Below, in pieces: positions 21 through 63,206 of a stretch of 64,000 nt of DNA (within the stretch, counting starts at the first letter, position 1; each line of letters opens with the position of its first letter). Origin of the DNA: Polytrichum commune (Eukaryota; Streptophyta; Polytrichopsida; Polytrichales; Polytrichaceae). The notes below the pieces were generated by a model. The model searched no databases. It worked only from the letters and a program-made list of their open reading frames with translations, and was not told where the DNA came from. The stretch lies in contig OX485806.1 in the NCBI GenBank assembly GCA_950295325.1, forward strand, positions 26,662,001 through 26,726,000, given 5' to 3'. The translations under genes were made by a program, and so were the position numbers.

Positions 21-2547
21 TTGCAATGTTCTTGGTTGAAACAAACTAAATCTTTTTTCAAAGACTTGCATTGCTGTGCAATTTGTGGTGTGACGAAGTT
101 AAATAACCGCAATAAGAAATACCGCTTCCTTCACAATACATATCTCGATGGGGTAGCACCAATGCAAGGGTGTACCCCGTATGGTACAACAAACACATAC
201 ATTGCAAAACACACGACAAACGCCTCGGGGGACAAGATGATTCTTTGTAATCAATGTCATTCAAATAGAAAGAATCCTCCTCATGCCCCTTATATAGTGT
301 ACCAGCCACCAGCGTATATGAAGTCTATTGTCACGTTGAATCCTCTACACGTGCAGTTGTTGTAGTTCATGGACATTGGTGTGCACATGCAATCTAAAGA
401 TTGGGGATTCAACACTGGCAAAATTGTTTTTGACAGTCTTTTTAATAGTCCTTTATTTGGTTGGACTGAGAACTTTGATGCATCCCAAACAATTGAGAAT
501 TTGGTGTCATCTTTGACCCTATTGTTGTCTCAAAACTTGCATACAAACCCATTCTTTCAAAAATACATGACGGTTTTTGAACAACCAGAAAAGAGCACGA
601 GCATGTGTATTCTTACACTGGATGTGATTCAACCTATTATTGCCAACACTGGCACACACTCGATGTCATTTCCAACCATGGACGTTCATAGGGATGTGTA
701 CGATCTTGCACTTTTGTTTGACATGCGCACACAAACACAACCTAGAAAATATGCCAATTTTTTCACAATAGGAAATATCCATCTTCGAAATGGTTCGCGG
801 TCTGACACTAGAGGGGAGCCTATCACATTCAAGAGAAATATATTGAATGTCGAATTGGAAGGCATGACGCTTGAGAGTGCGCTATTTCCTTTCTTATTTC
901 CAACATGCCTACGATGGTCGGACTACACTCTCTGAATACCTGAAATATCGGATGACTACATTGTTCTTTCCTTTCACTCTATACAAACCATATTTGCTAT
1001 ACATGTATGATATACGACAATCCGTACAATTCTTGAAGGAAGTTTCTCATCAATGTTTGGAGAAAGATATCAAATAAACCCAACATGCACACCCGTATAT
1101 GAATGAAGTTGTTGTAACACGTTACAAATATAGTCTTCCATCCTCTATTGAAGGCACTCCACATTGGCACAAATTTCAACTAAAAGACTTACTCGCAATG
1201 GTTGACAAGTTTGGAATGCCTGACCTGTTCCTTACATTAACAGCCGATGAAGCAAGCTCTCTCCAATGGGAGGATGTTGCAGATATAGAACAAATAGTCC
1301 AACAAATCGATAAGTCCATGACATGGAAAGATTGTCCTGTGGAATGTGCTTCCTTATTCCACTCACGCGTTCAAAAATTCCTTCATGATTACATACTTTC
1401 GGGACCTTGTATACTAGGACGTGTGAAATAATATGTCGTTCGCTATGAAATACAATTTCGTGGTTCCTTGCACGCACACATAATGTTGTGGATAGAACAT
1501 GCAGACTTGGAACGTGTTGCAAACGAAATAACTGCAAGCATTCCTGCGGTATTTGACTCTACATCAGGCAATTTTATTGAGCCTATTGATACTGAGCAAA
1601 ACACTTTGTTCAAAACAGTGATAAGAAAGCAACTGCATACATGTACTTCATGATGCCATCATAGAAAAAGTCATGGCACATGCAAATACGGGTTTCCTTT
1701 TCCACCGCATATAGAAGAGCAGACGACGTACAATGTTGATACAAGAAGATGAGATTACTATAGACCCCGCAATGAAGACCACAATGTTGTGCCATACCAC
1801 ACAACCCTTTTGCTACTTTGGGGTGCACATATCAATTTGCAAAGAGTTAATACAACTTATTGGTCGTACTACTTGCTGAAGTATGCGATGAAATCTGAGC
1901 CACATGAACCTATACAATTAGATAAAACAAACGCTCAACGTTTGGGTCTACAAGGTGCCTCAAATTCTCAACTGCAATTAATCTCCTCACTCATTATATC
2001 GAAGCCAATTTCCTCTGCAGAAGCAGCACTGGCTTGCCTTCACATCCCGGTAATCCAAAAAAGCCGAATTGTGAAGTACATTGATTCTAATCCACCTATG
2101 CTACGAACAAAGTTGGTTACCAAATCCAGGATGTTTGGATTCCATCCCATCGATGCATATTGCAACAGACCAATTGCTTTTGAGAGCATGATTTTTTTTC
2201 AGTACTTTGAAAGATTTGAAACTGACAGAATACAAAAACCGAACATGACATGCTATGGGGTCGACATGTTTGGATTCTATTTGTACGAGACCACAAAGGT
2301 AACAAGGTTTACTGACTTTCATCTCACACACAATACACATGGTTTTTTCTTCAACATTCTCCTCCGCAACTTCACATTCAGAGATGAAAGACAACTATTG
2401 TCTGAGCGCAACACAAACAAGAACTACCTCCTTGAATGTTATATTAGAGGCTTGCTTCTTGATGTCCAAGCAGTGCAAAACTATTTGTCACAGTATGCTC
2501 ATCGAAACCTTATTGAGACCGAAAAACATGCACAACTTTTAGATTGA
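21..2547 (+). pseudogene. Helitron replication-initiator (Rep, HUH) half, broken
   Basis: Segments read in order. 21-365 has paired cysteines (CCAIC, LCNQC) like the Zn-binding N-terminus of Helitron proteins. 369-935 ends in the family phrase LESALFPFLFPT. From about 905 the reading moves to another frame (YDGRTTLSEYLKYRM). 1099-1431 carries LPSSIEGTPHWH and MPDLFLTLTA of the Helitron_like_N region. 1441-1653 carries the HUH motif as RGSLHAHIMLW. 1654-1790 carries CKYGFPFP. 1789-2547 carries the catalytic tyrosine/lysine segment YYLLKYAMKSEP. Rep of this type nicks and joins single-stranded DNA during rolling-circle transposition. Stops at 1075, 1429, 1651 and 1747 fall in the same frame as the flanking similarity, so they are point lesions, not introns. 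Confidence 0.87.
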
Positions 2548-2628
2548 CTTTTGCAAGACTATCCATTCCTCGATCCATTAAACATTTCTAACAATTAAAA
2601 TATTCCACACGAATTAACCCCTCCTTCA

Positions 2629-3989
2629 TTGCATCGCCTCAGTAGACCAAAAGACCATGTTTTTTATATTCAGCTTTCAGACATGATGCTTACACCTGAC
2701 CAACAACGTGTATTTCATGCCATTCTTCAAAATCCAACAGCGTTGCACGTTTTAACTGGAACACCTGGAAGTGAAAAAATATTTTTTGTTAAATATTTGG
2801 CTCAATACTTTCAAACACAAAACAAACTTGTGTTGTTGTCTGCTACAACAAGCGCTGCAGTTTTGAGACTGTCCTCAACTGCATCCACAACACATACATT
2901 GTTTCGTATTCCATCACGAGGTTACTTGTCACCACTGCCAGAGCCATCCACTGTACTAGAGCGTTTACATAGTGCAGACGTAATTGTCATAGATGAAATG
3001 TCTATAATGACTAGCTATATGCTATGCACGGTTGAACATCGCCTCAAACAAGCATGTAGAGACACAATTAGCAACACATTTTGCAACAAGCTTGTGCTGC
3101 TTGTCGGAGACCTTGCACAACTACCAGCAAATGTGTGCATGCTCCAAAAGCCCCAGATATTATTTGCAGATGTTGCCACATTAGTTCCGCTCCATGTTGG
3201 GCCAGTGCACTGCAGCACAAACTACAAATATCAGTGCGTCACGCAACTGATCCAACTTACTTGCAGTTTCTAAACATCATACGAGATAGAGAACCAACAG
3301 AATCTTAAATTGAAGCCACATTGTCGACATGCTTTGTCAACGAACTGGAGTTGACGAGCCACATTCATGCAGACACAACCATATTATGTTCTCATCGCCA
3401 GGATGTGATAATGTACAATGACATTGTGTTCAAAAAAAAATTTGATCAGTCGGAAACAGTGCGTGTAAACTTGGACAGCAATGTAGTGCCAAAAGACAAT
3501 ATGCAAAATTGGCTTGATGACCCGCACTTTGACCATATTCATCTTGTTGTTGTGGGTGCACTCGTTATGTTCATTGAAAATGTAAGCCTTGCAAAAGGTG
3601 CAATAAACAGAGCTACTGCAACTGTAAATGGCATCAATGTGGACAGCGTACAAAAGGTTACCAATATTGCCGTCGAAGTCAAAAATACTTCTAAGCACAT
3701 GCTCCTGAAACGTACTACCTTCCAACATGTATATACATTTGGTAAAAAGTTCTACAAAAGTGGATTTCCAATTGTGCTTGCATACGCAATGACTGGCCAT
3801 AAGTCACAAGGCGCCACTATTTCCACAAATGTGGTGGTAGACATCCGCAATGTCTTTGCCCCAGGGCTGACTTATGTAATGTTGTCAAGGGTTACGAACC
3901 GGCAAAATCTCAAAATCAAAGGACGATTGTCACCATCCCACTTTGTTCCATGTTATCTATCATACACCGCTTCTGAAAAGCTGAGTTAG
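2629..3989 (+). pseudogene. Helitron PIF1-like helicase half, broken
   Basis: 2629-3273 has a Walker A-like GTPGSEK, in which the Ser/Thr expected after the Lys is Ile; a Walker B VIVIDEMS; and the motif LLVGDLAQLP. The reading then shifts frame near 3220-3235 and continues as DPTYLQFLNIIRDREPTES, followed by a stop at 3306-3308. 3321-3989 supplies the C-terminal motifs, including GHKSQGATI and YVMLSRVT. Order and spacing are those of a Helitron PIF1 helicase, which unwinds donor DNA. The altered Walker A, frameshift and stop all indicate loss of function. It follows the Rep half in the same frame after stops at 2545 and 2596. Confidence 0.87.
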
Positions 3990-10894: not shown

Positions 10895-10914
10895 CTTAAC
10901 TTAGGGTTGGCGCA

Positions 10915-13900
10915 ATGAGCCTACCGGCGAAGCGACAACACGAGGAGAGCGGAGGGATTGGAGCAGCAGGGAATAAGGGCATTGCGGATGTCGTCGCTTC
11001 GGGAGGAGGAATAGGATTAGGAGGATTAGGGAAGCTGCAGCAGGGGATGGAGGGGGGGAGCGCATCAGCATTGGCGAATGCTATGGAATCATCGCGGCCT
11101 GCCAAGGTGGCCAGGCATGAGCACGAGGGGGAGTATTTCGGAAGTAGTAAGCGGGAGGGAGGAGGGAGCGGGGTGGAGAAGGAGGTGGCGATGGAGAAGG
11201 AGAAGATAGAGAAGGAGAAAGAGAAGGAAGGGAGGGCGGAGAGTAAGATGAAGGTGCGGGAGTACGGGGGGGAGGTGAAATTGGAGCGAGATCCGATGCG
11301 CGAGGGCTTGAAGGCAGAGAATAGAGAGAGGGAAGGGCGGGGAGGAGGAGCAGCGGAGGTGAAGGTGGAAAAGGATGTAGGCGGCTGGGGGGACGGGAAG
11401 GAAGGGGGCAGAGAGCGAGAGAGGGAGAGAGATAGAGAAAGAGAAATACAAAGAGAACGAGAACGAGAGAGAGAAAGGGAGAGAGAGAGGGAAAGCAGAG
11501 AGAGTAACAAGGAGTTTCTTGGACGGACGGTGAAAGGGGAGGAACCTTGGGGAGGAGGGGGTTTGGAATTGGCGGAGAACGTCAATTTCGAAGCGCAGAG
11601 GAAGAGGAGTCCGCGGGAAGGGGAAGTCAAGGTGCGGGATGGGAAGGAGATGGTTCTTCCAGAGGTGAAGAGAGAGAGGGAGGAGCGAGAGAGCCGAGAG
11701 AGAGAGAGAGAAAAAGAGGAGCGGAAGGAGAAGGAGAGGAAAGAGGAGAAACGAAGCGAGCGTAAGGAGGATTCGTCTCTGCAGCCGCATTCCATTGGAC
11801 CTGAAAAAGAAATTGAGAGGGAGGAGAGAGAGAGGGAAAGGGAGAAGGGAGAGAAAGAGAGAGAGAGGGAGAAGGAGAAGGAGAGGTCACGGGAGCGGTC
11901 ACGCGATAAAGAGAAAGAGGGAGGAGGGGGCCGTGGGGAGAAGCGAGAGAAGAGGGAGAAGGAGCGGGAGCGGGATTCGCATCGAAGAGAGAGGGCGGAG
12001 CGTGGGGAGGAGAGAGAGGATCTGGTGAGAGAGAGAGACGAAGGCAACAAAGATGACATTGAGATGACGGAGAGAAAGCCCAGAGGTGAGAAGGAAGGAA
12101 GGGATCGGGCGCGGGAAAGGGAGAGAGAGAGAGAAAGAGAGAGGGGAGAGAGGGGGGAGAAAGAGAAGGAGAAGGAAAAGGAGAGGGATGGTGGTGAAGG
12201 AGGAGGAGAAGGTGGTGGTGACGGTGGTGGTGGGGAGAAACGAAAGAAAAGAGTTCGGGAGGCGGAGAATAAGGCTCTGCTAGACCGGGAAGCTATGCTG
12301 GAAACTGGGGATGGTGAGGATGCTGGAGGAGGAGGCGGAGGTGGAGAGAAGGACAAGGATGCTGTGGTGAGCTATGGAGTGCAGCAGCGCAAGCGCATGT
12401 TGCGACCCAGGGGCCAGTTAAACCCTTCCGCTAGAGATTCGCGCTCACGGTTTCGGCCCAAGGACAATGAAGGGTAAATTACTGCACTCCTCTTCAGTAC
12501 CTGCTCATTCTCATCTCATCTCATCTCATTTTAGGTCGATTTTGCAATTGAATTGCATCCACATGCGGACATGCATGCATGAGTTCCACATGTATTCCAC
12601 TGTGATTGATGAATGGGGTATTAAGAACCATCATAAGAAACCATAAGCCTTCCACAAATTGAAGGAGATCTCCTTCCTGCTGAGGATTCTTTCCTCATAT
12701 GCTCTGTCATGCTCACAAGACGTAGATTTTTAGGGTCTGATTTGGGATTCATTCCCCTCTGACAATTTGGGGACAATGTGATTTTACATGGAGGTTTTTA
12801 TAAATTAGAACAGTCCCACCTTAAATTTTGGTCAATAAGAGGTTCCCAAAACTGAGTGGAGCCATCTTCCTGCATGCATCTTCCTGTTTCACCAATTAAG
12901 ATGGATTAAAACTGCATGAAACTGTAGGGGAGTGTTAGGAACTTGTGTGTGCAATCGATGAATGGGCTTAAGAAGCATTATAAGCAATCATAAGCAACCC
13001 ACAAGTGAAGGAGGGCTCCTTGCTCTCCTTTGAGTAGTTGGTATCTGGAGCGAAGGATTTTACATCCTCATTGCTATCTGCCAGGCTCACAAGACGTGGA
13101 TTTTGAGGGTCTGATTGGTCTGATTGACAATCTGGGGACAATGTGATGGATCTCACATGGTGAATTTATAATCTGGATCATAAATTTTTGGGACAGTCCC
13201 ACCTTGAGTTTTTGGTTATCAGGACGTTTCAAATACTATGTGGACTGATCTTCCTGCATGCATTTTCCTGTTTCACCGTCAAAGGTGTTTCACCTATAAA
13301 GAATAGATTGAAGCTGCATGGAACTACATGGAACTGTAGGGAATATATTGGGAACTTGTATGTGTAAGTGATTAATGGGGCTCAAGAGCCCGTCATAACA
13401 ATCATAAGCAATCCACAATTGGAGGAGGGTTCCTTGCTCTCCTTTTAGTAGTTGGTATGTGTAGTTGAGGTTTGTGTTTTAATTGAACTCTGCCAAGACA
13501 TTTAAGGGTCTGATTGGGATGCATTCCTCCTCTGACAAAATTTTGATGGCTTTTGTATTGCAGGACCCAAGGTTGGTGTGGCATTCTGTCTCTAAGTTCC
13601 CTCTCAATGTGTTTGACTTTCCCGACTTGGGTGGGACATTGCTATAACGAAAAACACTGTCCAAATTTGAGGTATTTTGCTGTGTTTATTAGCTTAACAA
13701 TGTAGTTCGAGGCAGCATCCAGGTTCTATCTGCCTGAGGCAAGGTGATTCTGGTTCCCTATCTCCCAATCATTATCGTTAAGCATTCGGAAAAGATTAGG
13801 GGCCAGTCTTCTACACTGAAGTGTGGCAGCATTGCTGGCCTCAACTTATTCCTGAGGTAATATTTTTCACGGGAGGCCGGTTCTGTTGTTAGCAGGCACT

Positions 13901-16900
13901 CACTTTTGAGATCTAGCGAGCTTGGATGCTTTAAGGACTGGAAATTAAATTCCTAAGTAAGATGAATATGACCTACATCCTGAATGATGGGATGTGTAGT
14001 TTGCTCTGGATTGAAGGAACCATGAAGGCTAACTGTTAGAGGGAGGTTTATATCTGATGTTACCATATGTATGATTTTTGGGGATTTGGTCTCTTCTGGC
14101 AAAGGACTAGGTTAGTCTGGAAGTGGTGAGTTTTTAAACGATTCTCAACTCTAATATAACCGGTCATAAGGGTATCTTCAGTTTTGAAGGTACTTCAACA
14201 CACAGTATATTTGTAGACCACTAATTCCTCCCCCACAGTAATTGCATGGAAAGGTGTAGTGCTGCTGCAAACATTTTTGCTTTCTTGAGAAAGACTTCTG
14301 CAAAAAGGTGAGCTGTTTCTGCAGGTCTCTATATGCACATGCACTTTGTGTTGCACCTGCAAACCAACTCTTTGGTCGGATTGGTGGGGTTATATAGATT
14401 GTTATATTCCAGTATTGGGAATTTGCCAGGCAATTGCAAATATCATGGTGAAAACCTCAAACTAAACTTGGGGGTGAAGTCTGACAAAATTACGGTGATC
14501 CTTATTGTAGAGGAATTTTTCGATTTCCACTCTAGGTTTTATGAAAATAGAGGTACAAGGCCTTGCTGTGTAAGACCTTGAGATACTACTGAGGCAGAAT
14601 GAGAAATTGGGATATTTAAGAGATAGCAAGTCCAAGTCGGTGTCAAGAGTTCTTAAACCCCTTTGGCTCTCTAAAAAGTTCTTGGACCTTCAAAGTGAAA
14701 ACTCTTCGTTGAGCCCTGGTTTATTTCTCATTCTTCTAGTATATTTTTTGTGAAAAGAATATGAAAAATACAAGCTTCCAAATCATAAAACCTTGCAGCA
14801 AATTTGATGGCTCTGTTCCCTGCCATCTTCATGAGCCTCTAGGCTTCATTCCTCTAATAAAGATATTTGGTTTTCCCCCATGGGTCTCTTTGACCCCTTT
14901 TTGTTGCAATGTTTTGAGCTATAGTGGTATAAGCACAGGTTCGAGGGTCCAGGGTACTGCTTATATGGGGGATGTAGCAGCCTGGATTGGGTTAACTGAT
15001 GTATTCAAGTATGAATAAGGTCTAGTCACATGTTGTATTAGAGTTGGGTTGTAACATCACAAAGCAGGGTCAGAAATTTGGCTGAGTCTCCTCATATTTA
15101 CAGGCATATGGTAAACTAATGCTCCAATGTTATTGCAGGCCGGTCAGAGAGCTCTGTTTTACAATATAGGATTGGAGAGGGCATGCCAGAACTTGCAAAA
15201 CTGCGTAGGGATTTTGAGGCTACAGAGCGAAACAATGCCACACATAGTCCAGGTCCCACTGTTGAAATACGCATAGCTGCTGAGCTTGCGACCACTTCAA
15301 ACCGCCAGGTTGGCTGTTAGAACCTTTCTGAAGTATTGAAGTATTGAAGCTGTTAGTACCTTTCTGGGTCAGTTTTGAAGCTAATATGAACAAACATTGG
15401 CCACGAAGTTGAAAGCTCAAGTTGAAAAGTGACATTTTTGCTTCAATCTAGTTTCAGAACTGAGACATGGATTCTTCAATTTAATGATAGAAAGAACTTG
15501 TGTTGCTGTAGGATCTGGGCATTAGTCATTTCTTAAATTTGAAGATATGCATGTTTATTGTGTAATTAGAGTTTAGAGTATTCTTACTCTGGTTTTTAGT
15601 AAAGGTGAACTGACAGCATTGGAAATGGTCTTACTGGCGTTGTGGGACTGGTATATGTACTCAGGTGTACTGTACCTCTTTTGTTTCTAAACCTTTCCTG
15701 TTATTGAATGAGATATCTATAAGTCTGAAGTTTAGTCTCACGAGGTTGTGGAGCTGGGCTGGGCCTATAAGGTGTAGTTGTCCGGAAAATGGTGACCTGA
15801 CAACCTGCGTATCACAAGACATGAGATGTGTTCTTTTCCTTCAATTGGACATGCAATTTGATTTGAAAGCTCACAACCTTAATTTTTCCCATTTTCTCAG
15901 ATTCGAGGGAGCCAGCTATGGGGCACAGACATTTACACTGATGACTCGGACATTGTAGCAGGTAAGCAGAGCTCTCTGAACCAATGTCCTTAGCACATTT
16001 GAATAATGGAATTAAGGCTTTCTGATGCCACTCAGACCAGAGGTTATAATCTTATAAGACTACAAATAGACCACTTTTGAAGGATTTGATATAAGTACTG
16101 CAGAATTGTTAAATAGTTTTTTTTGTGGTTCTGGTGATTGCAGTTCTGATGCACACGGGATATTATACACCTACAGCTGCCCCTCCCCCACATTCAATTG
16201 CAGAGTTGCGTGCCACCATCAGGATTTTTGAGTCTCAGAAAAGTAGGTACTTGTGTGGGATGTTATCAACCTCTTGCGTGCTACTTGGATCCTGATTCTG
16301 AAGATATTGATCCGTACTGATTCTGAAGATATTTGCTTACCATGACTAATATCATCTACATTTCAATGTATTCCTTGAACTGGTGGAATTTAAAGACTTC
16401 ATTCAATATGTTGTGCAGCATACACATCAACTCTCAGAAATAGCCTTCGATCTCGGGCTTGGGGAGGTGGAAGTGGGTGTAGCTTTAGTGTGGAGCGATG
16501 CCGTATCACTAAGGTATTGAGTGCCAGAACTGCCCAAGGTTGTGTTACACAATTGAGCATGAGGCGTTCTGTCTAATTCATTTGAGCTATACAGTAGGGT
16601 ATATGAAGTAGATTCTGCCATCTGACTTATATATGGCTGTTTCTACATCTTGACGGCCTATGCTTATGGTGTGTAGGGCTGTAGGAAGAAGTTTTTTTTT
16701 TTCAAGTCTATTTTTCCATGGAAAATCCCCATGTGTTTGGGAGTTCCTTCTGACCTCTATTTGGGCATCTGTATACAGCAAGGAGGGGGCAGTGTAGAGT
16801 TGGAGCCATGTTTGATCCGTACGCCCTCTGTTGCTCCAACCCTTGCACCTGCAGCTTCAGAGCGTACAGTCACTACCAGAGCTGCATCATCGGTAATTGT

Positions 16901-18653
16901 TTGGTTTGCACTTCCTTTTGTGGGGACATTCTAGGCATGAGTTTGATATATGTCCACCAGCTTACTTCTCAATGAACATGTGTAAGTATTGCTTCTGTGT
17001 TTCTTGGGTTGAGATGGTCATTGCAATTCTCTGTTCATATGTGCATTTACGATATTCTGGATTTGAAGTGCAGAGTGCATATCGACAACAACGATTCATG
17101 CAGGAAGTGACCATACAATACAATTTGTGCAATGAGCCCTGGTACAGCTGCATTCCACTCTTTACGAACAGCATATGTAGGTTTATGTTAATGGGATAAT
17201 ATATTTTACAACCTCTGTATAAAACTTGGTTTCATCATATACAAGACTCGCCGGATGTGCATTTTGAGAACTTGTTTCAAGAGAGAGCCTAGTGAGCCTG
17301 CTTTTGCAAGTGTCCCCTTAATGGAGAAACATCAGGGTTTATTTGGCTTCATGATTAATAGACTTGCCTCCATGCAGAGTTCGATGTCCAATGGTCGGTA
17401 ATATCTTCACATTCTATTTTCTCAATCAATATAATTCTTGGTGAAGCAAAGGTTGTTGACATGATACAAATTCACATGACATTTCTTCAAGTGAGATGGA
17501 AGCTTTGATGTCCAATTAAGAACTTACGTTGTTGTACTTGCTGGCTCTCTGTCAAGTTGAAATCTATTTTCTCAATCTATCCTACACCTCATTTTGATGT
17601 TCCCTTCTCGGTAACTACTATGCAGGCTAAAATACAGCATGAGTATCGTGGCTGATCGTGGGCTAAAGAAATCACAGTTCACATCTGCCCGACTTAAAAA
17701 GGGGGATGTCCTGTATGTGGAGACCCACAGTACCCGGTATGTTGTGTGTTCCACCCAGATACATGAGAAGTCTATATGTGTTTTTTATCTCTCTAAGTAC
17801 CAATTTTTCTTGAATTTAGAATATGGTATTTAATGTATGCAAGTGTCAATATATATTCCCTCTATATAGATTTCCTTTTATCCTGGAACTTTTTTATCCA
17901 GCCCTTTGGCTTGATTACTATGCAGTTATGAATTGGCATATGATGGAGAGCGAACCACCTGCAATGGTGCAACTACAGCCACGTCTGCTTTTCCACAAGC
18001 CACCACCAATCTGGAGAAGATGAAAGAGAAATGGAACTCTTTAGAGAAGCCAACAGGGGCTCATGACAAGGGTCCTGTTCCACATGCTCATAATGGAGAG
18101 AAGATGCATGCAAGTCATTCCAACAATGGAGAGATAGGAGGTAGCCATCAAGGTCACAGTATGGTTCACCATAATGGTGAACCGCATGAACATTACAGGT
18201 GGTCCAAGTGTAAACGACCACTTCCATTATCCTCCATGCGCAGCAAAGGTGTACCATTACCAGCAGACTATGTTGAGGTGAGCTAACCATCCTGCACTGT
18301 CTACTCTTGAAACGGATACACATGACCCTTTCCCTTTTTCATTCTTAATGATCTTTCTGATTTCACAGCTGAACCCTTTTCTCCTGTTTGGTGGCTCAGC
18401 TCCAAGAAGAACATAATTCCCAATCTTTGGTGGAAGTTGGAAAGAATCTCTGCATGTTTTTAAAAGGATGCTTGCGATGAGTTTGTGTGTCAGCCAGTTT
18501 TTGAAAATATAAATTGATGTGTAGGTTCTGGAAGACTCTTTGGCATGGGAGGAGGTGCAATGGTCACCAACAAGTGTGTGGGTGCGGGGCACTGAATACA
18601 TACTTGCAAGAGCACATTTTTTCACACCACAGGTTGATGAGATGGATGAGTAG
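10915..18653 (+). CDS. HDC1: HDC1/Rxt3-like histone deacetylation complex subunit, 921 aa, 11 exons
   Basis: Exons: 10915-12473, 13564-13571 (8 nt), 15139-15308, 15901-15961, 16144-16242, 16419-16513, 16779-16892, 17074-17141, 17626-17736, 17926-18277, 18525-18653. All junctions keep frame and give 921 aa; Arabidopsis HDC1 is about 900. Exon 1 encodes about 519 residues rich in Glu, Arg and Lys with long RE runs, probably disordered, ending near VSYGVQQRKRMLRPRG. From about residue 520 the Rxt3 homology follows: RIGEGMPELAKL, RGSQLWGTDIYTDDSD, VLMHTGYYTPTAAPPP, LRNSLRSRAWGGG, VELEPCLIRTPSVAPTLAP, QQRFMQEVTIQYNLCNEPW, LKYSMSIVADRGLKK, TSARLKKGDVLYVETHS and, at the end, EVQWSPTSVWVRG. HDC1 is known in Arabidopsis as a nuclear partner and stabiliser of RPD3-type histone deacetylase complexes; yeast Rxt3 is in Rpd3L. 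Function is inferred from this homology. Intron 1 is large and repeat-filled. Confidence 0.93.
11400..12240 (+). repeat. Coding GA-rich microsatellite tracts in HDC1 exon 1
   Basis: Purine-only runs of GAGAGA type recur, for example near 11410-11510, 11690-11720, 11810-11880 and 12110-12180. They encode alternating Arg/Glu stretches. The tracts are in frame and uninterrupted by stops. They also create a long spurious Ser/Leu/Pro frame on the opposite strand. Confidence 0.85.
12590..13560 (+). repeat. Tandem direct repeats in HDC1 intron 1, about 2.5 copies of 350-415 bp
   Basis: The phrase series 'GATGAATGGGG...CATAAGCAA', 'AAGGAG..CTCCTTGC', 'CTCACAAGACGT', 'GGGACAGTCCCACCTT' and 'CTTCCTGCATGCAT' occurs from about 12605, from about 12955 and partly from about 13370. 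The last partial copy ends just before the 8-nt microexon. Copies differ by many substitutions and small indels, so the duplication is not recent. Confidence 0.75.
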
Positions 18654-22232: not shown

Positions 22233-25200
22233 ATGGCTATGGCTATGGCGGAACTCAGTTCCGCACTGTCGCGGTCCAATTTCACTCTCTCCTCATCTTC
22301 CTCAAACCTGAAATCGTCCACCACCATCACCACCCCCTTCTTCCCCCAAAATTTCTTGGCAGAAACCTTACCATCATCATCTCCATCACCATCACCATCG
22401 ACCAAGAAGCTATGTGGAACTCGCCATATGAGTACATCGAAAAGGGCTATGGGGCCTATGACAACTTTATGCATGGGTAGCAGTAGTGCACTATTGGAGC
22501 TTGTGCCTCCTCACATATCCAAGTCGCTCAATTACGACCTGCAAAGGTTCGATTCATTAAAACGAACCCCTGTCGACCTCGTGGTGGTTGGGGCGGGTCC
22601 AGCAGGATTGGCGGTGGCACAACGAGTTTCCAAAGAAGGCGTGACAGTGTGCTGCATCGATCCGAATCCCCAGAGTGTGTGGCCTAACAATTATGGTGTC
22701 TGGGTGGATGAGTTTGAAGACCTGGATCTCTTGGATTGTTTGGACTACACGTGGGCAAGTGCGGTGGTGTACCTGGATGATGTGAAGAAGAAAACCCTGG
22801 AGCGGCCGTATGGGCGTGTCAACCGGACTCGCTTGAAGTCCAAAATGCTGGAAGCTTGTATTGCCAATGGTGTCCAGTTTCATCAATCTAAGGTAGCCAT
22901 TTTTTTTCTTTTTTCTCCACTACCCAATTCTCATTTTCGTCAGTTGTCTACACTTATGTAGTACCGCCTAGATATTGGAATTTGATGCAAATTCTAGTTT
23001 AATGAAAGTAGGAGCAGCCTCCTGGATACTGATTAGGGCTATGGTTCTTTCTCATGCCACTTTGTTAGTTTCCAGTTAATGCTGTATGGTTGGATTCGTC
23101 AATTCCATGAAGCAAGTGTTGTTGATGACCGTTGGTGAAAGATTGAAGGGGTAATTCAGCAGTGTGTGTGTCCTGATTTTTCAGTTTAGGTTTCCTTTTG
23201 ACCCTTTCTCATATCATTGTGCAAGATTTAGTCAATTCTGTCACGTGTATTTGTCCTTTCCATTAAGCAAGTGTTGTCAGTCATGGTCAGCCAAAGATGG
23301 GCATTTCAGTGATGTGTGAGTCCTGGTTTGGGTTACAGTTTCTTATCATCCTGTAAGTGTTCAGTCAATGCTATTTGCCTGGATTCGTCATTTCCATCAA
23401 GCACGTTGTGTTGTTGATCGTGGTCAACTAAAGATGGGCAATTCAGCACTGTCTGTGCCCTGGTTTTGGGTTGCAGTTTCTTTTTGATCCTTTCTCATGT
23501 CATTTTGTAAGTTTCCAGTTAATGCTGTATGGTCAACCAAAGACAGGTAATTCAGCAGTGTGTGTCCTGGTTTTGGGTTGCAGTTTCTTTTTTATCCTTT
23601 CTCATGTCATTTTGGAAGTTTCTAATTAATGTTGTATGTGTGTATTTGTCATTTTCATCAAGCACCTGTTATGGAGCATGGTAAACCAAAGATGGGCAGT
23701 TGAACAGTGTGTGTGTCCTGGTTTTGGTTTCAGTTTCTTTTTTAATCCTTTCTCATGCCATTTTGGAAGCTTCCAGTCACTGCTTTATCCCTGCATTTGT
23801 CATTTGCATCAAGCAAATTTTGTTCTGGGTTAATTTCTTTTGATCCTTTCTCAAATCATTTTGTCAGTTTTCAGCGAATGCTGAATGGTCAAGCAAGGGT
23901 TGGCAATTCAGCAGTGCATGTCCTGGTTTTGCGTTCCAGTTTCTTGTGATACTTTCTCATATCAGTTTGGAAGTGTCCAGTCAATGCTGTATATGTGTTT
24001 CATCATTTCCATGAAGTGTTGTGGATCACGGTGAACCACAAATGGGCAATTCAGCAGTGTGTTTGTCCTGGTTTTTTGGTTTAGTTTCCTTTTGATCCTT
24101 TCTCATATCATTTTGTAAGTTGTTTTGGGACCAGGTGTGTCTAGTGGCGAGGTAAATAAGTTCGTGGCAGAGGCCAACCTTGAAAGGGAAGAGGCAGGTG
24201 CTCATCAAGACTCATGAGCTTATGTGGGTTGTGTAGGTCAAGACTGTAGACCATAATCCATCAAAATCATTTGTTACATGCGAAGATGGCACTTTGATTG
24301 AAGCAGCTGTCGTCCTGGATGCCACAGGCCATTCAAGGCGGCTTGTGAAGTACAACAAGCCTTTCGACCCGGGCTACCAAATTGCTTATGGTATTGTTGC
24401 CGAGGTATACATTCCTTACCGTCAAAAAACACCTTTGGTTCGTGAAGTGCATCTTCTCCATGGGAATCAGATTTGTGCTAATAATGTTGTGGCAATCAAG
24501 GTATATGGCCCCATTGTTGGCACTTCAAATTCGAGACAATTGTAGCCATTGGATCTGGTTGAGAATTGTCTCATCCTCTTGGCAATACCGAATCACAAAG
24601 ATTGTTGTTTCAAGTTTCAGAGTCAGAGTGGAGATGCAAAAGTTTGATGAGTTCAAAGTGGAAGATTCTTTTTCTCTTTAAATGACCACATAAACCCTGC
24701 CAATTTTGAGCATGTAGTCCAATCTTAATGTGACATGTGTTTTTTTGGTGTCCGTTCTTAAGTACAAGACCGTGACACATACCACTCAAATACAGGTGTT
24801 TGATTAAGAAGAGTGACCATGAAAGGCCCACATACCTTAGTATTGGGCTTGATTCTTTGAGGATTACAGTGTTCTGCTGGGTCATATATTTATCCTTTAA
24901 AAATTTTGAGTTGTAAAAAGCACACAGGTTTCTACTATGAGGGTGTGTTATGCTTTTATGTACAATGTGAGGATGTTGTGTCGCTTGTTCTCTATTTTAA
25001 CTTATGGTTCTAGTAATACTAAGATCCCAAAATGTTAGATTCCTAAGAGTGGGTGATTTGCTTGTGCAGGTAGATAGCCACCCTTTTGATCTGGACAAGA
25101 TGTTATTCATGGATTGGCGAGACTCTCACTTGCGTTCGGATAAAGAGCTTAGGGAGGGGAACGCCAAGTTACCAACCTTTTTATACGCAATGCCTTTCTC

Positions 25201-28200
25201 AGCCAATCACATCTTCCTAGGTGGCATTTTATGCTCTGTATTGATGTTTGCAACCATGTTCATGTATGGAGGTCTAATGCATTGTCACTTGCTATCATGA
25301 GGTTTAGAATGAGAAAATGATCAAGAATACAAAGAACTTCAACAAATCTAAGTGCTGGGAATATCATGCTGTTGATGTCAGACAGAGAGACAATGCTGTG
25401 ACCTATCTTTTGTAGTTTTGGGTGTCAAACTGCAGCAGCTACCATCTAAGCTAGAATTGTCGATATTCAAGCCTGCAGGTTGTATGTCACTTGCTCCACT
25501 TGTATTGATTTTCTGGATGATGTGGCCGGTGGGATTCTCAGAGGAGACTTCACTGGTGGCAAGGCCTGGTGTCCCAATGGATGTGATCCAGAAACGCATG
25601 GAGTTGCGGTTGAAGCACCTGGGCATACATGTCCGTAGCATCGAAGAAGACGAGTGAGATATTCCATACGAACTGTTGACCATAGTACCTTATCAGTTTA
25701 GATACTTTCCTTGCCAAAATTGAATATAATTGTACACCTCTCAACTTTCCAACAGGTACCAACCAAGTAGTGCATGACATGTGGAACCTTCAGTCAAGAA
25801 AATAATCATCTCTTTTTAGTCTTGGTTCTTGTGTCTGTCCAGCAAAGATGTCCTGGGTAGCAAGTGATCTGCAATGTGTGGTAAACATCTAATTGTGAAT
25901 TTCAAATTGTTGGAATAGGGATCATTGGAAGCCAGGTTTGAATTATCTGCGACCAATACTTCGTGGGAATATATGCAGGAAATGTGTCATTCCAATGGGC
26001 GGTGTACTCCCTGTAATTCCACAAAGAGTCCTTGGCATTGGTGGGACTGCTGGCATGGTTCATCCATCCACTGGTAAATCTACTTACTCTCTTTGCTTAC
26101 AATGCAACCTTCGCTTGATAGCACAAATGAATTCAACAACATTACAACTAAGATCATGGTCTTTGGGCTGGTTTTGCCTTCAAATTAATAATTATTATGT
26201 GCTGAACTAAAGAGGACGGACTAAGATGTCTTTGTAACTCGAAATAATGGGGACTGCTTATTGTATTCTGCCAGTTGGAGATGACTTTCCTGTTTAATGA
26301 AATCATCTGCCTATATGTTGTGTTCAAAGTTGACTGCGGTTGTACATGCCATATATCCAGGTCCTTTAGTGAAAATTACTCTTTGTTGTTTTCAACATGA
26401 GATGCAATAGAGATGTCCTTAACTTGAGGGTACTTCTGGTTGGGAGTTGGTTGTTTTGTATACGACATCTTCCTTGTTTGGTGAGTTTCCATTGCATGCT
26501 TGGAGGTGGTGTGGAGGTTTGAACAAAGAACATTCTATATTGGTTTATTAATGGTCAAATTCATTTAGGTATGCCTACAAGAGGTGCTTAAATGAGTCTG
26601 GCCCTCAATGAACTGAAATTGGTTGCTATTCATTCAAGTTCAAACACTTCCTACCAAGTGTGCACCACAAGTGGAAAGAAATTATTGATTTTGGCTGCAA
26701 ACAACCAATGGGAAATTATGGGGGACCTACTCTATATAGAATCCAAAATTGTGACTAATCTTTGTGCTTATGAACAGGCTACATGGTGGCGAGGACATTG
26801 GCTGCTGCACCATTATTGGCTGAATCTGTTGTTCAGAGACTAGGGGGCTCTGCAAGCACCCATGTTCCTACTAAAAAGCCTGACTCGTCACGTCACTTAG
26901 AATCCACAGCTCCTTCACAGCAATTAGAGGCATCCATAAAAGTGGATGAGTCTTCTGGTCCACAAGGAGACGAACTCGCAGCTGGCGTGTGGGCAGACTT
27001 GTGGCCTTTGGATAGGCAACAGCAAAGGGCATTTTTCTGTTTCGGCATGGATGTCCTCCTTAAGGTGCAAAATGTGTACTGTTTCACATTCTTGTGACAA
27101 TTTTGTCTTTGCAATTTTTTGGTTTTGAGGACTAGGTATCGAAGAGCTCGAATGAGAGATTGCTCAACCCTTCAAGGACCAAGGGGTTCAATAAGCAACC
27201 TATACACAATTGTTCCGATTTTAAAGATTGATTGGAAATCCACGTTTCTTTAAAGATGGACCTTTATTCCATGTGAGTAGTAGTGTTTTGAAACAGACAA
27301 ATAGAAAGTGTGTACAGATAATTTCATTTGACGAATAGTTTGCAAGGAAAAGCAAGAAGATGTTGATGTTATGGACCAGTACTGACCCTTATAGGTTGTT
27401 GATGCAGCTTGACTTGGCAGGAACGAGGCGGTTCTTTGATGCGTTTTTTAATCTCGAACCTCACAATTGGCAAGGATTCTTATCATCCCGCCTTTATTTT
27501 ATGGAGGTAATTTCAAGTTCTAACCACTATCACTGCACTATCAAGTTTCTCTTATGAACTATACCAATATGTGCAGTTAGGTTTCCCCACACTAATGCAT
27601 CAGCATTCCACACTATTTGATTAGTTATTACCACAGTGACAAAATACAACTTGTTTGTTTTTTTAAAAATAAGTTTTATAACTGTGGTTGCTATAGGAAT
27701 GAATAGACAAAGTTTTAAGTCTTTGTAATCTGATTTTGACCCAGGGTAATTTTGCATGGGTAAAGAGCCAACCTACTCATGAAGGTAACTTAAGTGCACA
27801 TAATAGTGTAGGTAATGTAGGTAATGGATGCGAGGAGCCTTGCCACAAGCTGTAGTAGGTGCCTGACCTAATATGGCCAATGGGAGGGTGACACATATCC
27901 ATTATTGGACATAGTGGTCAGGTCATGGCATGGTCATTGGTTATGGGTGATAATGGGGCTCCTCGTATCCAATCAGGATAAGACACATCAGCAAATCGCA
28001 TGGCCTGACCACTACATCACTCTGACTGAACTCGGGTTAATGTCAATAACCTGCACCCTCACAATTAATGGACGTCTAGAACTGACTGCTAGTTACAGAT
28101 GAACTGGTTGAATTTGAGAAATAATTGGTTGAAGTTCAAGACTTCAGGAAAATTACCGAACGTTTTAGAGGAATTTAGAGAATATACCCCAAATTAATAA

Positions 28201-37680: not shown

Positions 37681-40600
37681 TTAGGAATTGACGACCCTAC
37701 ACGACTTGCGAATTTCTCCGTTGGGATCAGTTCCTGTCTTCACATCCACACCCGAAAGCTTGACAAAAGCAGTCGCCCAACTCTCAAAAAACGCGGCCTG
37801 GTCGGTAGCAAACTTCTCCACCGTGGCTTTCGACCTCGTGTCTGTAAAGAGTGTTTGATCCGCGGTCATAAGCCCCATTCCAGTCTGAGCATGACAAATC
37901 ATTGTTACTAAAGACCACATCAACCCAAATGTGTGATTGCACCATTGAAGTAAAGACACCGGTATATTTATTGTACACCAAACCACACAAGGGAGCTCAA
38001 CCCAACACCAACACCGCCAAGCCTATTTGTGAGAGTGTCAGTGATTCAGAGTTCCTCCTTGTATGTCCCAAATTTGCAGTCTAAAATGAAGCGCTCCCAT
38101 TCATTTGGTGTTGGTGTTGGGTTGAGTTAGGTTGCCACTCAAGAATAGGTGTTCGAATAAGAAAAGTAATTGAATAAGGGCCGTCTACCTTAAGGGAGAT
38201 TAGTCAATGTTTGATTGAGAGAGGAGGGTAAATTGCATTACCTGCAAGTCCAAGAAGTAGCCATTGTCAAAGGTGGTGGGGGTGGAGGTGTCCAAGGGGA
38301 CAGTGGTGCTTGGGTCGGCCTGCGCGGGGCACTTGCTGATGAGCGTTTGGCTGAAAGTGGGGTTCATGGTAGGATCCACTTGCGCCACTGTGTTGTTAAA
38401 TACAATGCGCTCACTAAAAGCATTGCAATGGGCAACACCAATCGTATGTGCTCCTGAATCAGTGATAGCATACAAAAAATTAAAAATTGAAATAAAGCAC
38501 TTGAGGATTTGGTTTCTATTAGATGCAATAATTCTTGACATTTTGCCACATGATAGTTTTACATTGCTCGAGACCCTTTAGAATCCCACGCGGACATGTC
38601 ATAGTTCGGTGTCAAAGGAATGAATGTGGAGCACCTCAATATGGCAATTTACAACGCAAATTCAACTTTAATTTAGTAATGTCAACACTACTACTAGTGC
38701 TCAACTACTAGATTTCACAGAACAACATAACATGTCAAGATGATTTGTTGTGATCGTTTATTTATACCTGCTAGGGTGACAACATCCGTCATATCCAAGC
38801 CCTTGGAACCAAAGAATTTGAGCAGCTTGTCCAAATCAAAGTTGGTGTCAGGTAGATTAAACCTTACCACACTAGCATTGGACACCCGGCCGTCTAGCCG
38901 ACCTGTTGGGATCCTTACGTTTGGACCTCCAACCTATACAAATTACAAATTCATCACACTTCAACTTATGATAAGCAACTATTGATCCTTACAAAAAAAA
39001 ATATGAAAGACCTTCATCAATACTCCAGTGGCAAACACCGACATAGATTATAGTGTTGCTTCACTTTTGAAACAAGCCAGTCCACACCTATTTCCCCACC
39101 TACTATGATTGGGTGCACCGGAAATTAAGTGCTAAGAATGCCACCTATTCATCCAACACTATCCCAACCATAGCAACTTAGCCTCAAGGTTATGACGGGA
39201 TCTAGGTAAAGTCCTTGGGTTTAAGCCATCCTCACCCAACCCACTATACTTCTACATACAACTATAAAAGCTTGACAACTTTGGATATCAATAATTGAAC
39301 TTTGTCCAAGTTCCAACACATCAACTTGCTACAAATTTATAACAAATTTGAAATGAGTAAAAAAATGCAATAGTAGTATGCAATTTATAGCATATATCCA
39401 AATCAATAAGAATATTCAATCCTCATGCTAGGTTGATTTAAACCCAAATAAGAGCTATCATATTCAACCTAAATCATGAGCATCTGAAGCACATTGATGA
39501 CATCATGCCCTCAATATTCCCAAGCCCATAGAGCTCCTCAAGAGGGCTGAATAGTATACTGGATTAAGGTCATTGGGTTGAGCCGATGACCATTATCTGA
39601 GGTATTTCCATCGGCAAGAGAGTATGCACATCATAATGGAACTCATAATTAATATGTTGGATCATATGCCATATTTTGAATCAAGTGGATATGTTTGATA
39701 CGAAGAAACTTCAAGTGGACAGCATAATCCCTTTGCAATGAAGATTACGTAATTTTTAAATTTACCAAACACCAACTTATCAAATATCAAAATTAAAATG
39801 ATAATTATTTGGTAAAAAGATGATTGTGGTGTCAAATTACCTGCAGGACAGCGGCACTTGCGGCAAGAGCAACAATGTCAGCACATGAGACAACTCCTGG
39901 ACACAACAACTCCATGGACCTTTTAATGCCATCCACCAAGTTGTAACCTTCCACCGTCTTATTGATTGGGTCATCTTTCTCAGCTGTTTGGTTGGTTGTT
40001 GAGTCTAGTAACAAAGACCCGTCACAACCCTGCATATTAAAATTCCACCACTTAAGTACTCTTTGAAAATAATTCAATTGCTATCATATTAAATATGTAG
40101 CATTTTAGTATGATAATGTTGTTTGCTCCGAGTTGAAACTTACACAATAATGTTGTAAATTTGCTAAGATACGACAAGATTTTTTCTCAAAAATAACATG
40201 GGCATTTTAAGTCAATTTGGTCTGTCAATTTTGACACCATCGAGAACGAAGTACAAGCCTTTCAAAAGTGATGCATTTTGTTTGTCCAGAGCTAAACAAG
40301 TTGCTAAATATCCTAGTGCTATACATCAAGAGGAGAAACTGAAGAGTCATAGCTAGACTTTCCAAGAATGTTGCTCTGCCTCTTTGTGAAGTAACAAACG
40401 ATCACTTCATTAGAAGCTCTAGCAGTGATTTGGAGCAGCTATTGTAAACTAGGGGAAAGTTGCCACCCAAGTAAACTACAGGTTGGAAAATCTACTCTAA
40501 TCGATGTAAGAAGTTGATGAGTTGTACCTCATTCCAAGCATGTTGCTCCTCTTTGTGAAATAGCAAGTGATGAATTCATTAAAAGCATTCCAGGTGATTT

Positions 40601-42442
40601 AAAAACAACTCCAGGCAAGTAGGAACTCTAATACTTTCGTAGTGAGGAGAAATGAACAAGTACACCACTTTCCAAGCATGTTGCTAATGAGTGTGGAATA
40701 ACAAACGATCCATTCACTGGAAGCATTCTAATGTAGAAAAACAAACATAGGTTGTAATTAGAGGGTGCCCACCACCCTAGCCAAAATCTGGGAAATTTAG
40801 AAGCTCAGACAATGAGGAGAAAGTCACTAGCTTAGGTAGGCGTGTCTACTTTCAATACAACAATAATATGGTCACCTATAGTTAAGGGGTATGTGGTTAC
40901 ATATGGGTTTAAGAATTGGCACAAAAAGGTCATATGTTCAAAAAATAAAATTGGACTATGTGTTCAAAATGTGTAAACCATTCTAGGTTCAATAGTTGAC
41001 ATGATGGGGGGACCTATATGACCACTTTCTAAAAATAAGAATGTTCATTGTCATAATGCTTAAGATATGCATATGAGCTCCAAATATTATGACATAACAT
41101 TACTCAATCAATGTGGGCTCTCAAAATATAACATTGGGATGTTGAGAGCTCAATCTAAGTCTAAGTCTCCATGTGCAACCTTTTGAGCATCCCATTGTCA
41201 TATTCTGAGGGCCCACAAAATGAGAGCTAAATGATGAGTAATGTTTCAAAGGCAAATGGCTATGGGCTCAATTTGGATTTGCTATTCATCTCACACTAAT
41301 TGCGTGTCTCATATCCTACAAGAAGTAGGTGTAGCTATAATATCCTAGTATGAATAGCTGTAACATCCATGAAAAAGTATCCGTCTACCTTACAGCTCTT
41401 TCCATGGGTGTTGCTCTGACTCTCTGTGAAATCATAACAGATGGTGAATAAAAGCATTCATAGAAGTGAGCTAGTTTAAATATTCAAGGTTCTAAAGAGG
41501 AGATCAGGTGCCTGCCACCCCGGGCCCATGCAATCTACTCTTCTGATAGTGGGGAGAAATTGAAGAGTTATTCCTCTGATGGTTCTGATTAGTGCTGAAC
41601 ATGACACTTGAGGTGCAAATCTTTACTATTCCGGACACAAATCATATCAATGGACTCCTCCCAATGCCCTCCTTCCAAGCATGTTTCTCCTCTTCGTGGA
41701 AGAACAAATCACCAATCCATTAGAAGTGGTTTAGAGTCAACTGTTCTGAAAGGGAGAGATTCACCCAGGGTCTGATAGTGAGGAGAAATTGAAAGTTATA
41801 CCTCATTCCAAGCATGTTTCTCCTCTTTATGAAATACCAGACGATCTCACTCCATTAGAAGCATTAGGATCGATTAAGAGACAGCTGACCTGAAGGGGAA
41901 ATTAAAGGTGGCAGCATGCCACGCCTGGCCAGTACAGGGGAATGTAGTGGTGAGAAATTGAAGGGTTGTATCTAGGTAGCTCTTTCCAAGCAAGTTTGCT
42001 AGATGAGTCTTCGTGAAGTAACAAATGATCACTTCATTTGTCTTCGCATTTATGGGGCCAGTGAGTTAGAAACAGCACAAAAATACTAATAAAAGAGAAG
42101 AGCTGCTCATCAGCCCCGAGCCAATGGCAAATCTTGTACATATGGTAGTGAAGAGAAATTGAAGAAATAACATACCTGTACAAAGCAGTCGTGGAAGAAG
42201 AGGCGGAGGATCTTGGCAGGCAGCACAGGGTCCACTACAGAAGCAGTTCTCACAGCGGTGGTGATGATGGACTCCGCCCCAGGGCAGGAATTGGCATAGT
42301 ATCCCATGCTCAGCTGCCCCTCCACTGACCTTACTCCCACAGCAGCCACCACCAGCATGGCCACAACCAAACAACTATCACCCAGACATGGCCTCCTGCT
42401 GGATCTGCTACTGGACTCAATTCTTCTTGTGAGGCCCACCAT
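37681..42442 (-). CDS. Class III secretory peroxidase A, 345 aa, 5 exons
   Basis: Exons in transcript order (plus coordinates): 42442-42176, 40029-39841, 38933-38768, 38453-38242, 37884-37681. These haem enzymes use H2O2 to oxidise phenolics and usually act in the cell wall or vacuole. A hydrophobic signal segment ends near VRSVEG (residue 42), and the mature start QLSMGYYANSCPGAE is typical. Distal Arg80 and His84 lie in RLFFHDCF, GCDGSLLLD starts at 90, SCADIVALA is the usual Cys site, GPNVRIPTGRLDG binds in the middle, and proximal His210 is in GAHTIGVAHC. The end GEIRKSCRVVN carries the last Cys. Introns 1-3 are at the classical peroxidase positions; intron 4, after YFLDLQ, is extra. Intron 1 is 2.1 kb and repeat-filled. 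The joined frame is intact. Confidence 0.94.
40330..42045 (-). repeat. Degenerate tandem repeats in peroxidase A intron 1, about seven copies
   Basis: The anchor TTCCAAGCATGTTGCTCCTC followed by TTTGTGAAATAACAAA.GATC and ATTCATTAGAAGCATTC recurs near 40360, 40530, 40670, 41400, 41670, 41808 and 41982. It is often preceded by GTGAGGAGAAATTGAAGAGTT. Spacing is irregular (about 135-180 between neighbours, with one large gap holding an R2 copy at 40947-41040). Two related units occur in peroxidase B intron 2, at about 61200 and 61470. Confidence 0.8.
40947..41040 (+). repeat. Dispersed repeat family R2, copy 2
   Basis: It contains ATTGGACTATG, CCATTCTAGGTTCAATAGTT and GACATGATGGGGGGACCTAT ahead of ATGACCACTTT and an A-rich stretch, matching 58658-58766 closely and 34978-35092 more loosely. 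It interrupts the tandem array of peroxidase A intron 1. Confidence 0.6.

Positions 42443-58257: not shown

Positions 58258-63206
<4,949 letters not shown>

Follow-up and report, generated by a model that had tools for sequence, protein, structure and literature searches.

Very small exons are a known feature of plant genes. A total of 2398 exons of 1-15 nt has been reported for ten species, with 105-454 per species, and 45 conserved clusters of them have been described, a cluster counting as conserved when three or more land plants have the exon in the same size and phase; 35 of these clusters are common to flowering plants and moss (accessible text of PMC8831610). According to the same text, most plant coding microexons have an inclusion above 0.5, they rely on signals carried by the introns on either side, and they show more detained introns, upstream above all. 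For 16 of 69 constitutive Arabidopsis microexons the only informative reads were those in which the downstream intron had been removed first, and for 32 more there was an excess of such reads; downstream-first removal was thus favoured in 48 of the 69, and reads with the upstream intron removed first were found exclusively for 4 (PMC8831610, accessible text). At the lower end of the size range, APC11 of Arabidopsis contains a constitutive and functional exon of 1 nt (accessible part of PMC4674806). Furthermore, many of the microexons in reference annotations have no RNA support, the share being 37% in Arabidopsis, 60% in soybean, and over 90% in rice and maize (accessible text of PMC8831610), which speaks against the microexon proposed here.

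The window, by which we mean the whole stretch of 64,000 nucleotides that was analysed, contains a complete gene of the HDC1/Rxt3 type on the plus strand at 10915-18653, with 11 exons and a predicted product of 921 amino acids. This gene probably belongs to a land plant. Arabidopsis HDC1 (AT5G08450) is a partner in histone deacetylase complexes and a chromatin-silencing protein. It has been reported to bind histone deacetylases and histone H1; its C-terminal half resembles yeast RXT3 and its N-terminal part is restricted to plants (PMC10953426, in its accessible part). The features of the gene model are the following, with a slash marking exon borders:

10915-12473, plus strand: exon 1, beginning with ATG and holding 519 complete codons, which encodes the charged, low-complexity N-terminal half
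12473, plus strand: 3' end of exon 1, in phase 2, after the bases GG of a Gly codon, with the donor AGG/GTAAAT
12474-13563, plus strand: intron 1, 1090 nt; when read unspliced it gives GGG TAA, a stop right after codon 520
About 12600-13538, plus strand: tandem array within intron 1, about 2.4 diverged units with a spacing of 349-414 nt
13532-13536, plus strand: candidate branch point CTGAC from a motif scan; its A is base 13535, which lies 28 nt before the acceptor
13564-13571, plus strand: putative microexon GACCCAAG, 8 nt, which completes Gly, codes for Thr-Gln and supplies the first base of the next Gly
13572-15138, plus strand: intron 2, 1567 nt, GTTGGT...TTGCAG; if it is left unspliced, translation ends after 566 residues
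15139-15308, plus strand: exon 3, 170 nt, with the border TTATTGCAG/GCC
15901-15961, plus strand: exon 4
16144-16242, plus strand: exon 5
16419-16513, plus strand: exon 6
16779-16892, plus strand: exon 7
17074-17141, plus strand: exon 8
17626-17736, plus strand: exon 9
17926-18277, plus strand: exon 10
18525-18653, plus strand: exon 11, with the TAG stop at 18651-18653

The C-terminal half of the encoded protein matches the Pfam family Rxt3 (PF08642) with E = 7.3e-15 and 56.3 bits against a cut-off of 29.9, and the protein also matched three PDB Rxt3 chains (E = 1.3e-7, 7.4e-5 and 1.3e-4). The strongest part of the Rxt3 match, residues 573-607, begins at the end of exon 3, takes in exon 4 and reaches into exon 5. 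The Rxt3-like part is preceded by 520 codons whose sequence is charged and of low complexity, with many R, E, K and G residues. Judged from the sequence, a low-complexity N-terminal half combined with a C-terminal Rxt3 match is the layout of plant HDC1. As in Arabidopsis HDC1 (AT5G08450), an N-terminal half is followed by a C-terminal half, which carries the Rxt3 match here; the protein may differ from it in its N-terminal half, which is very rich in the four residues just named. Opposite exon 1, at 10896-12356 on the minus strand, there is an open frame of 486 amino acids with a TTG start, rich in Ser, Pro and Leu, which very probably just mirrors the purine-rich HDC1 coding strand.

Exon 1 leaves two bases of a codon, and exon 3 requires a donor that leaves one. 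When exon 1 is joined directly to 15139, a stop follows after 529 residues, which bears out the statement of the initial annotation that the direct join breaks the reading frame. The eight bases GACCCAAG at 13564-13571, preceded directly by TTTTGTATTGCAG and followed directly by GTTGGT, convert between the two phases: joined to exon 1 on one side and to exon 3 and all that follow on the other, they give a reading frame of 2766 nt, encoding 921 amino acids without an internal stop. The translation over both junctions is NEG-TQG-RSESSV, the peptide that had been claimed. Retention of intron 1 gives a stop after 520 residues, and retention of intron 2 gives one after 566. An acceptor further upstream, at 15104, as an alternative start of exon 3 would also preserve the phase, but was rejected because a stop follows after 524 residues.

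In the gene model, 13564-13571 is internal and coding, lies within 1-15 nt and keeps the frame, as is characteristic of the small coding microexons of plants. It shares with the land-plant microexons described by Yu et al. 2022 (PMC8831610) and in MEPDB (PMC12409088), as far as the accessible texts of both go, its AG/GT borders, a size that is not a multiple of three and the fact that it is needed for the frame. The 8-nt example named in the accessible text of PMC8831610, cluster 18, lies in the gene RECQ3 and not in HDC1. The APC11 exon, like the one proposed here, is a microexon in a coding region, and it is reported to be constitutive; it differs in measuring 1 nt instead of 8 and in being an experimental case, and its existence makes the earlier description of 8 nt as among the shortest plant exon sizes too strong (PMC4674806, accessible part).

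The HDC1 exon may already be catalogued among the known clusters, because the genes would be listed in supplements and not in main texts. Neither HDC1, AT5G08450 nor Rxt3 is mentioned in the main texts of PMC8831610, PMC12409088, PMC10808074 and PMC11096116. Our search of main texts, with most subscription papers outside its range, found no paper linking HDC1 or Rxt3 with a microexon, and the sole plant paper found for the combination of microexon and histone deacetylation is, in its accessible part, unrelated. Broader microexon searches gave, among the matches listed, none that combined HDC1, AT5G08450 or Rxt3 with "microexon" or "micro-exon".

How distinctive the eight bases are was assessed by listing all cassettes between exons 1 and 3, defined as AG...GT pieces 1 to 300 nt long that keep a distance of at least 60 nt to either end of the interval, restore the frame and are free of stops. 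There are 164 such cassettes, 42 of which measure 15 nt or less and 8 exactly 8 nt. Frame restoration alone is weak evidence, because 164 cassettes achieve the same, and it was rejected as proof of an exon. The emphasis that had been placed on the restored frame is thus justified only in part: GACCCAAG does open the 921-aa frame, but this is not discriminating, since eight different 8-nt cassettes restore it. The peptide G-x-Q-G is encoded by two of the eight, 13564-13571 and 14946-14953, the latter with a very poor score of -2.7.

The cassettes were ranked by their splice sites. In a first site model, position weights were derived from the nine other donors and nine other acceptors of the gene, excluding the sites of the microexon itself. 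The microexon acceptor ranked first among the 155 AG sites of the interval and its donor third among the 158 GT sites, and the pair came first of all 164, with a score of 15.3 against 10.7 for the second-best cassette. By the criterion set in this analysis, its splice sites are therefore above chance AG/GT pairs. In leave-one-out scoring of the gene's own sites, two of nine donors and one of nine acceptors scored above those of the microexon. A second model also included the introns of the lycopene cyclase gene of the window, whose borders were set by eye, giving 14 donors and 13 acceptors in total. Under this model the acceptor ranked third of 155 and the donor second of 158; the pair was still first, with a smaller lead (15.6 versus 14.3). 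The training sets of both models are small, at 9 to 14 sites.

The second-best cassette in both models is a 59-nt piece, 14325-14383, which also restores the frame without a stop, and it might be argued that a longer exon such as this one bridges exons 1 and 3, the 8-nt piece being a chance AG...GT pair. Besides scoring below the microexon in both models, the 59-nt piece would put a hydrophobic stretch, SLYAHALCVAPANQLFGRI, into a polar region, and we know of no angiosperm HDC1 protein with an insert of this kind. We regard a longer bridging exon as quite improbable.

The likelihood of such pairs arising by chance was estimated in two ways. In 1000 dinucleotide-preserving shuffles of the interval between exons 1 and 3, the observed score was reached by 75 when any length up to 300 nt was allowed, by 19 at 15 nt or less, by 5 with a cassette of exactly 8 nt, and by 1 with an 8-nt cassette encoding G-x-Q-G; an 8-nt G-x-Q-G cassette of any score was present in 93. 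The second control consisted of 68 real, half-overlapping tiles of equal length from both strands of the rest of the window, with the spans of HDC1 and lycopene cyclase excluded. Five of these tiles reached the observed score at any length up to 300 nt, and none did so at 15 nt or less or at 8 nt. Among the tiles, 8-nt cassettes encoding G-x-Q-G were listed four times, two scoring 7.6 and two -4.2, and these are probably two sites, each counted twice by tile overlap. The site evidence is thus good for the microexon as such, and only moderate if a bridging exon of any size is allowed, because 75 of the 1000 shuffles and 5 of the 68 tiles then reach the score. Since any-length cassettes reach it in both controls, the splice sites alone do not settle the matter.

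What tips the choice towards the 8-nt exon over other bridging exons is the presumed fit of its peptide to angiosperm HDC1. The initial annotation had taken the Arabidopsis protein to read GAQGKPEVSSV at this position, and we assume that angiosperm HDC1 proteins in general read E-G-(S/A)-Q-G-K-x-E-V-S. The microexon region gives E-G-T-Q-G-R-S-E-S-S, in which G-T-Q-G fits the presumed motif.

Transcripts that dispense with an additional exon were considered as well, by trying direct joins between donors at 12323-12672 and acceptors at 14739-15288; the figures given here are the best three of 12 listed. The highest-scoring listed join (16.1) connects a donor at 12340, GAG/GTGGAG, with 15139, in frame and free of stops, and would make a microexon unnecessary. 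This donor scores slightly above the one at 12473 (5.8 versus 5.1) and lies in a coding repeat in which donor-like GGTG sites are abundant. Such a join, however, would lose 44 codons, including the segment RKRMLRPRG, which we take to be conserved in angiosperm HDC1, and would leave the best acceptor-donor pair of the interval unused, and we consider it very unlikely. The two other joins connect 12473 with acceptors inside exon 3, at 15209 (12.4) and 15170 (10.0), and both are likewise in frame and stop-free, the acceptor at 15209 scoring 6.5 against 7.3 for 15139. They would drop 23 and 10 codons of exon 3, respectively, which are in the same frame as the remainder and presumably belong to a VSSVVYKxGE motif; a join of this type seems extremely improbable. 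The low standing of the direct joins is mainly due to the fit of the lost segments to sequence that we assume to be conserved.

Taken together, the Rxt3 match, the 921-aa frame and the top-ranked cassette make an 8-nt coding microexon in an HDC1 homologue the best-supported model, so that the central proposal of the initial annotation stands, with other parts of it corrected as described. It is highly likely, on the sequence evidence, that 13564-13571 is a genuine 8-nt coding microexon of this HDC1/Rxt3-type gene, and that it is constitutively included. Very probably, it keeps the two halves of the gene in one reading frame.

The microexon would then function as a frame adapter: placed between a donor in phase 2 and an exon in phase 1, it would connect the charged N-terminal half with the C-terminal half that contains the Rxt3 domain. 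The two introns would have to be removed successively, since the upstream and the downstream splicing complexes could not both find room on only eight bases. Intron 2 is probably removed first, whereupon the microexon would become the start of a 178-nt exon; in the second step, the acceptor before 13564 would serve to splice this exon to exon 1, CTGAC being the candidate branch point. In transcripts that skip the microexon or retain a flanking intron, translation would end after 520 to 566 residues and would not reach the Rxt3 match, whose first residue is 573. A stop far upstream of later exon junctions leads to nonsense-mediated decay, and such decay would be expected for the failed forms, because their stops lie upstream of many exon junctions.

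The same position of the stops, at 520 to 566 residues and thus before the Rxt3 match at 573, allows one to speculate that the microexon is a regulated gate instead of a passive adapter. Changes in its inclusion could then set the dose of full-length HDC1, or could yield a stable protein of about 520 residues that consists of the N-terminal half alone; control would be exerted through detention of intron 1. We consider regulation of this kind unlikely, and favour the constitutively included adapter.

The tandem array that the initial annotation had placed ahead of the exon is real. Its pieces are 79-82% alike in blastn and 74-90% alike among long-spaced repeat pairs, and a blastn search of intron 1 against the window (E <= 1e-5) gave no matches outside intron 1. 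The microexon starts 26 bases past the last matched base of the array (13538) and is not part of a unit; it is absent from all six direct-repeat families (minimum length 25), and derivation of the exon from the array was rejected. The candidate branch point CTGAC does lie within the last array unit and may owe its presence, or its duplication, to the array. The scan used the branch-point motif YTNAY, further matches to which are located at 13510 and 13543, 50 and 17 nt from the acceptor, respectively.

As a single case, the HDC1 microexon changes little; the 8-nt exon is a good but ordinary example of the tiny exons of plants. If it is real, automatic annotation that misses the eight bases would split the gene or truncate it before the Rxt3 domain, and annotation errors from missed microexons have been described for other plant genes (PMC8831610, accessible text). 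If the same 8-nt exon were present across land plants, it would be a marker of gene structure, and it would offer a handle on how the spliceosome deals with exons too small for exon definition.

The likeness of the Rxt3 domain to LCCL domains is possibly more interesting than the microexon. With the Rxt3 domain of the window (15290-16513, from the end of exon 3 to exon 6) as the query, 47 loci titled bacterial were found (L001-L047). Of these, 28 were aligned, and at E <= 0.001 every one of them is matched by the Pfam models of both LCCL and Rxt3. Compared with a profile of the 28 loci, which were found with the window domain as the query and are hence selected for likeness to it, the window domain gives a probability of 99.3% and 35% identity over 72 columns. 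The window protein itself is below the Pfam LCCL cut-off (16.9 bits versus 22.6, E = 0.0071). From these sequence comparisons, the Rxt3 domain of histone deacetylase complexes appears to be of the LCCL type and homologous to bacterial LCCL domains; no paper naming both Rxt3 and LCCL was found in our literature search. A viral scan found no relatives. With 47 loci titled bacterial and no viral relatives, the idea of obtaining a plant orthologue through contaminated contigs was rejected. In a search of the same 47 loci with a longer protein, one locus (L011) spans the microexon residues (query 22-163), and at 23% identity and E = 0.34 it is too weak to aid an orthologue comparison; for the remaining pieces aligned to the Rxt3 region, the match begins no earlier than query residue 50.

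Several other genes were noted in the window. The lycopene cyclase gene, on the plus strand at 22233-26073, matches Pfam Lycopene_cycl with E = 5.1e-39 for its first part and is split by at least four introns, with borders set by eye; its joined exons are open in one frame. It is presumably of the beta type, and to our knowledge the beta-cyclase genes of angiosperms have no introns. Its first intron contains a tandem repeat at 23421-23638 (period 107, 2.0 copies, 88% matches), around which more diverged repeats are seen by eye, so that this intron and HDC1 intron 1 are alike in that each has its own local array. At 21-3989 on the plus strand there are consecutive ORFs, one of which (2629-3273) has a PIF1-like helicase domain (E = 5.4e-15) and another of which (1789-2547) has no Pfam match; the arrangement suggests a broken element of what we take to be the Helitron type. 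Finally, the minus strand carries peroxidase exons, presumably of class III, at 38200-38541 (Pfam peroxidase, E = 1.3e-18), at 59432-59782 (E = 4.7e-24) and at 42110-42442 (E = 0.0025, below the cut-off). Because the first two cover the same part of the domain, they point to at least two peroxidase genes.
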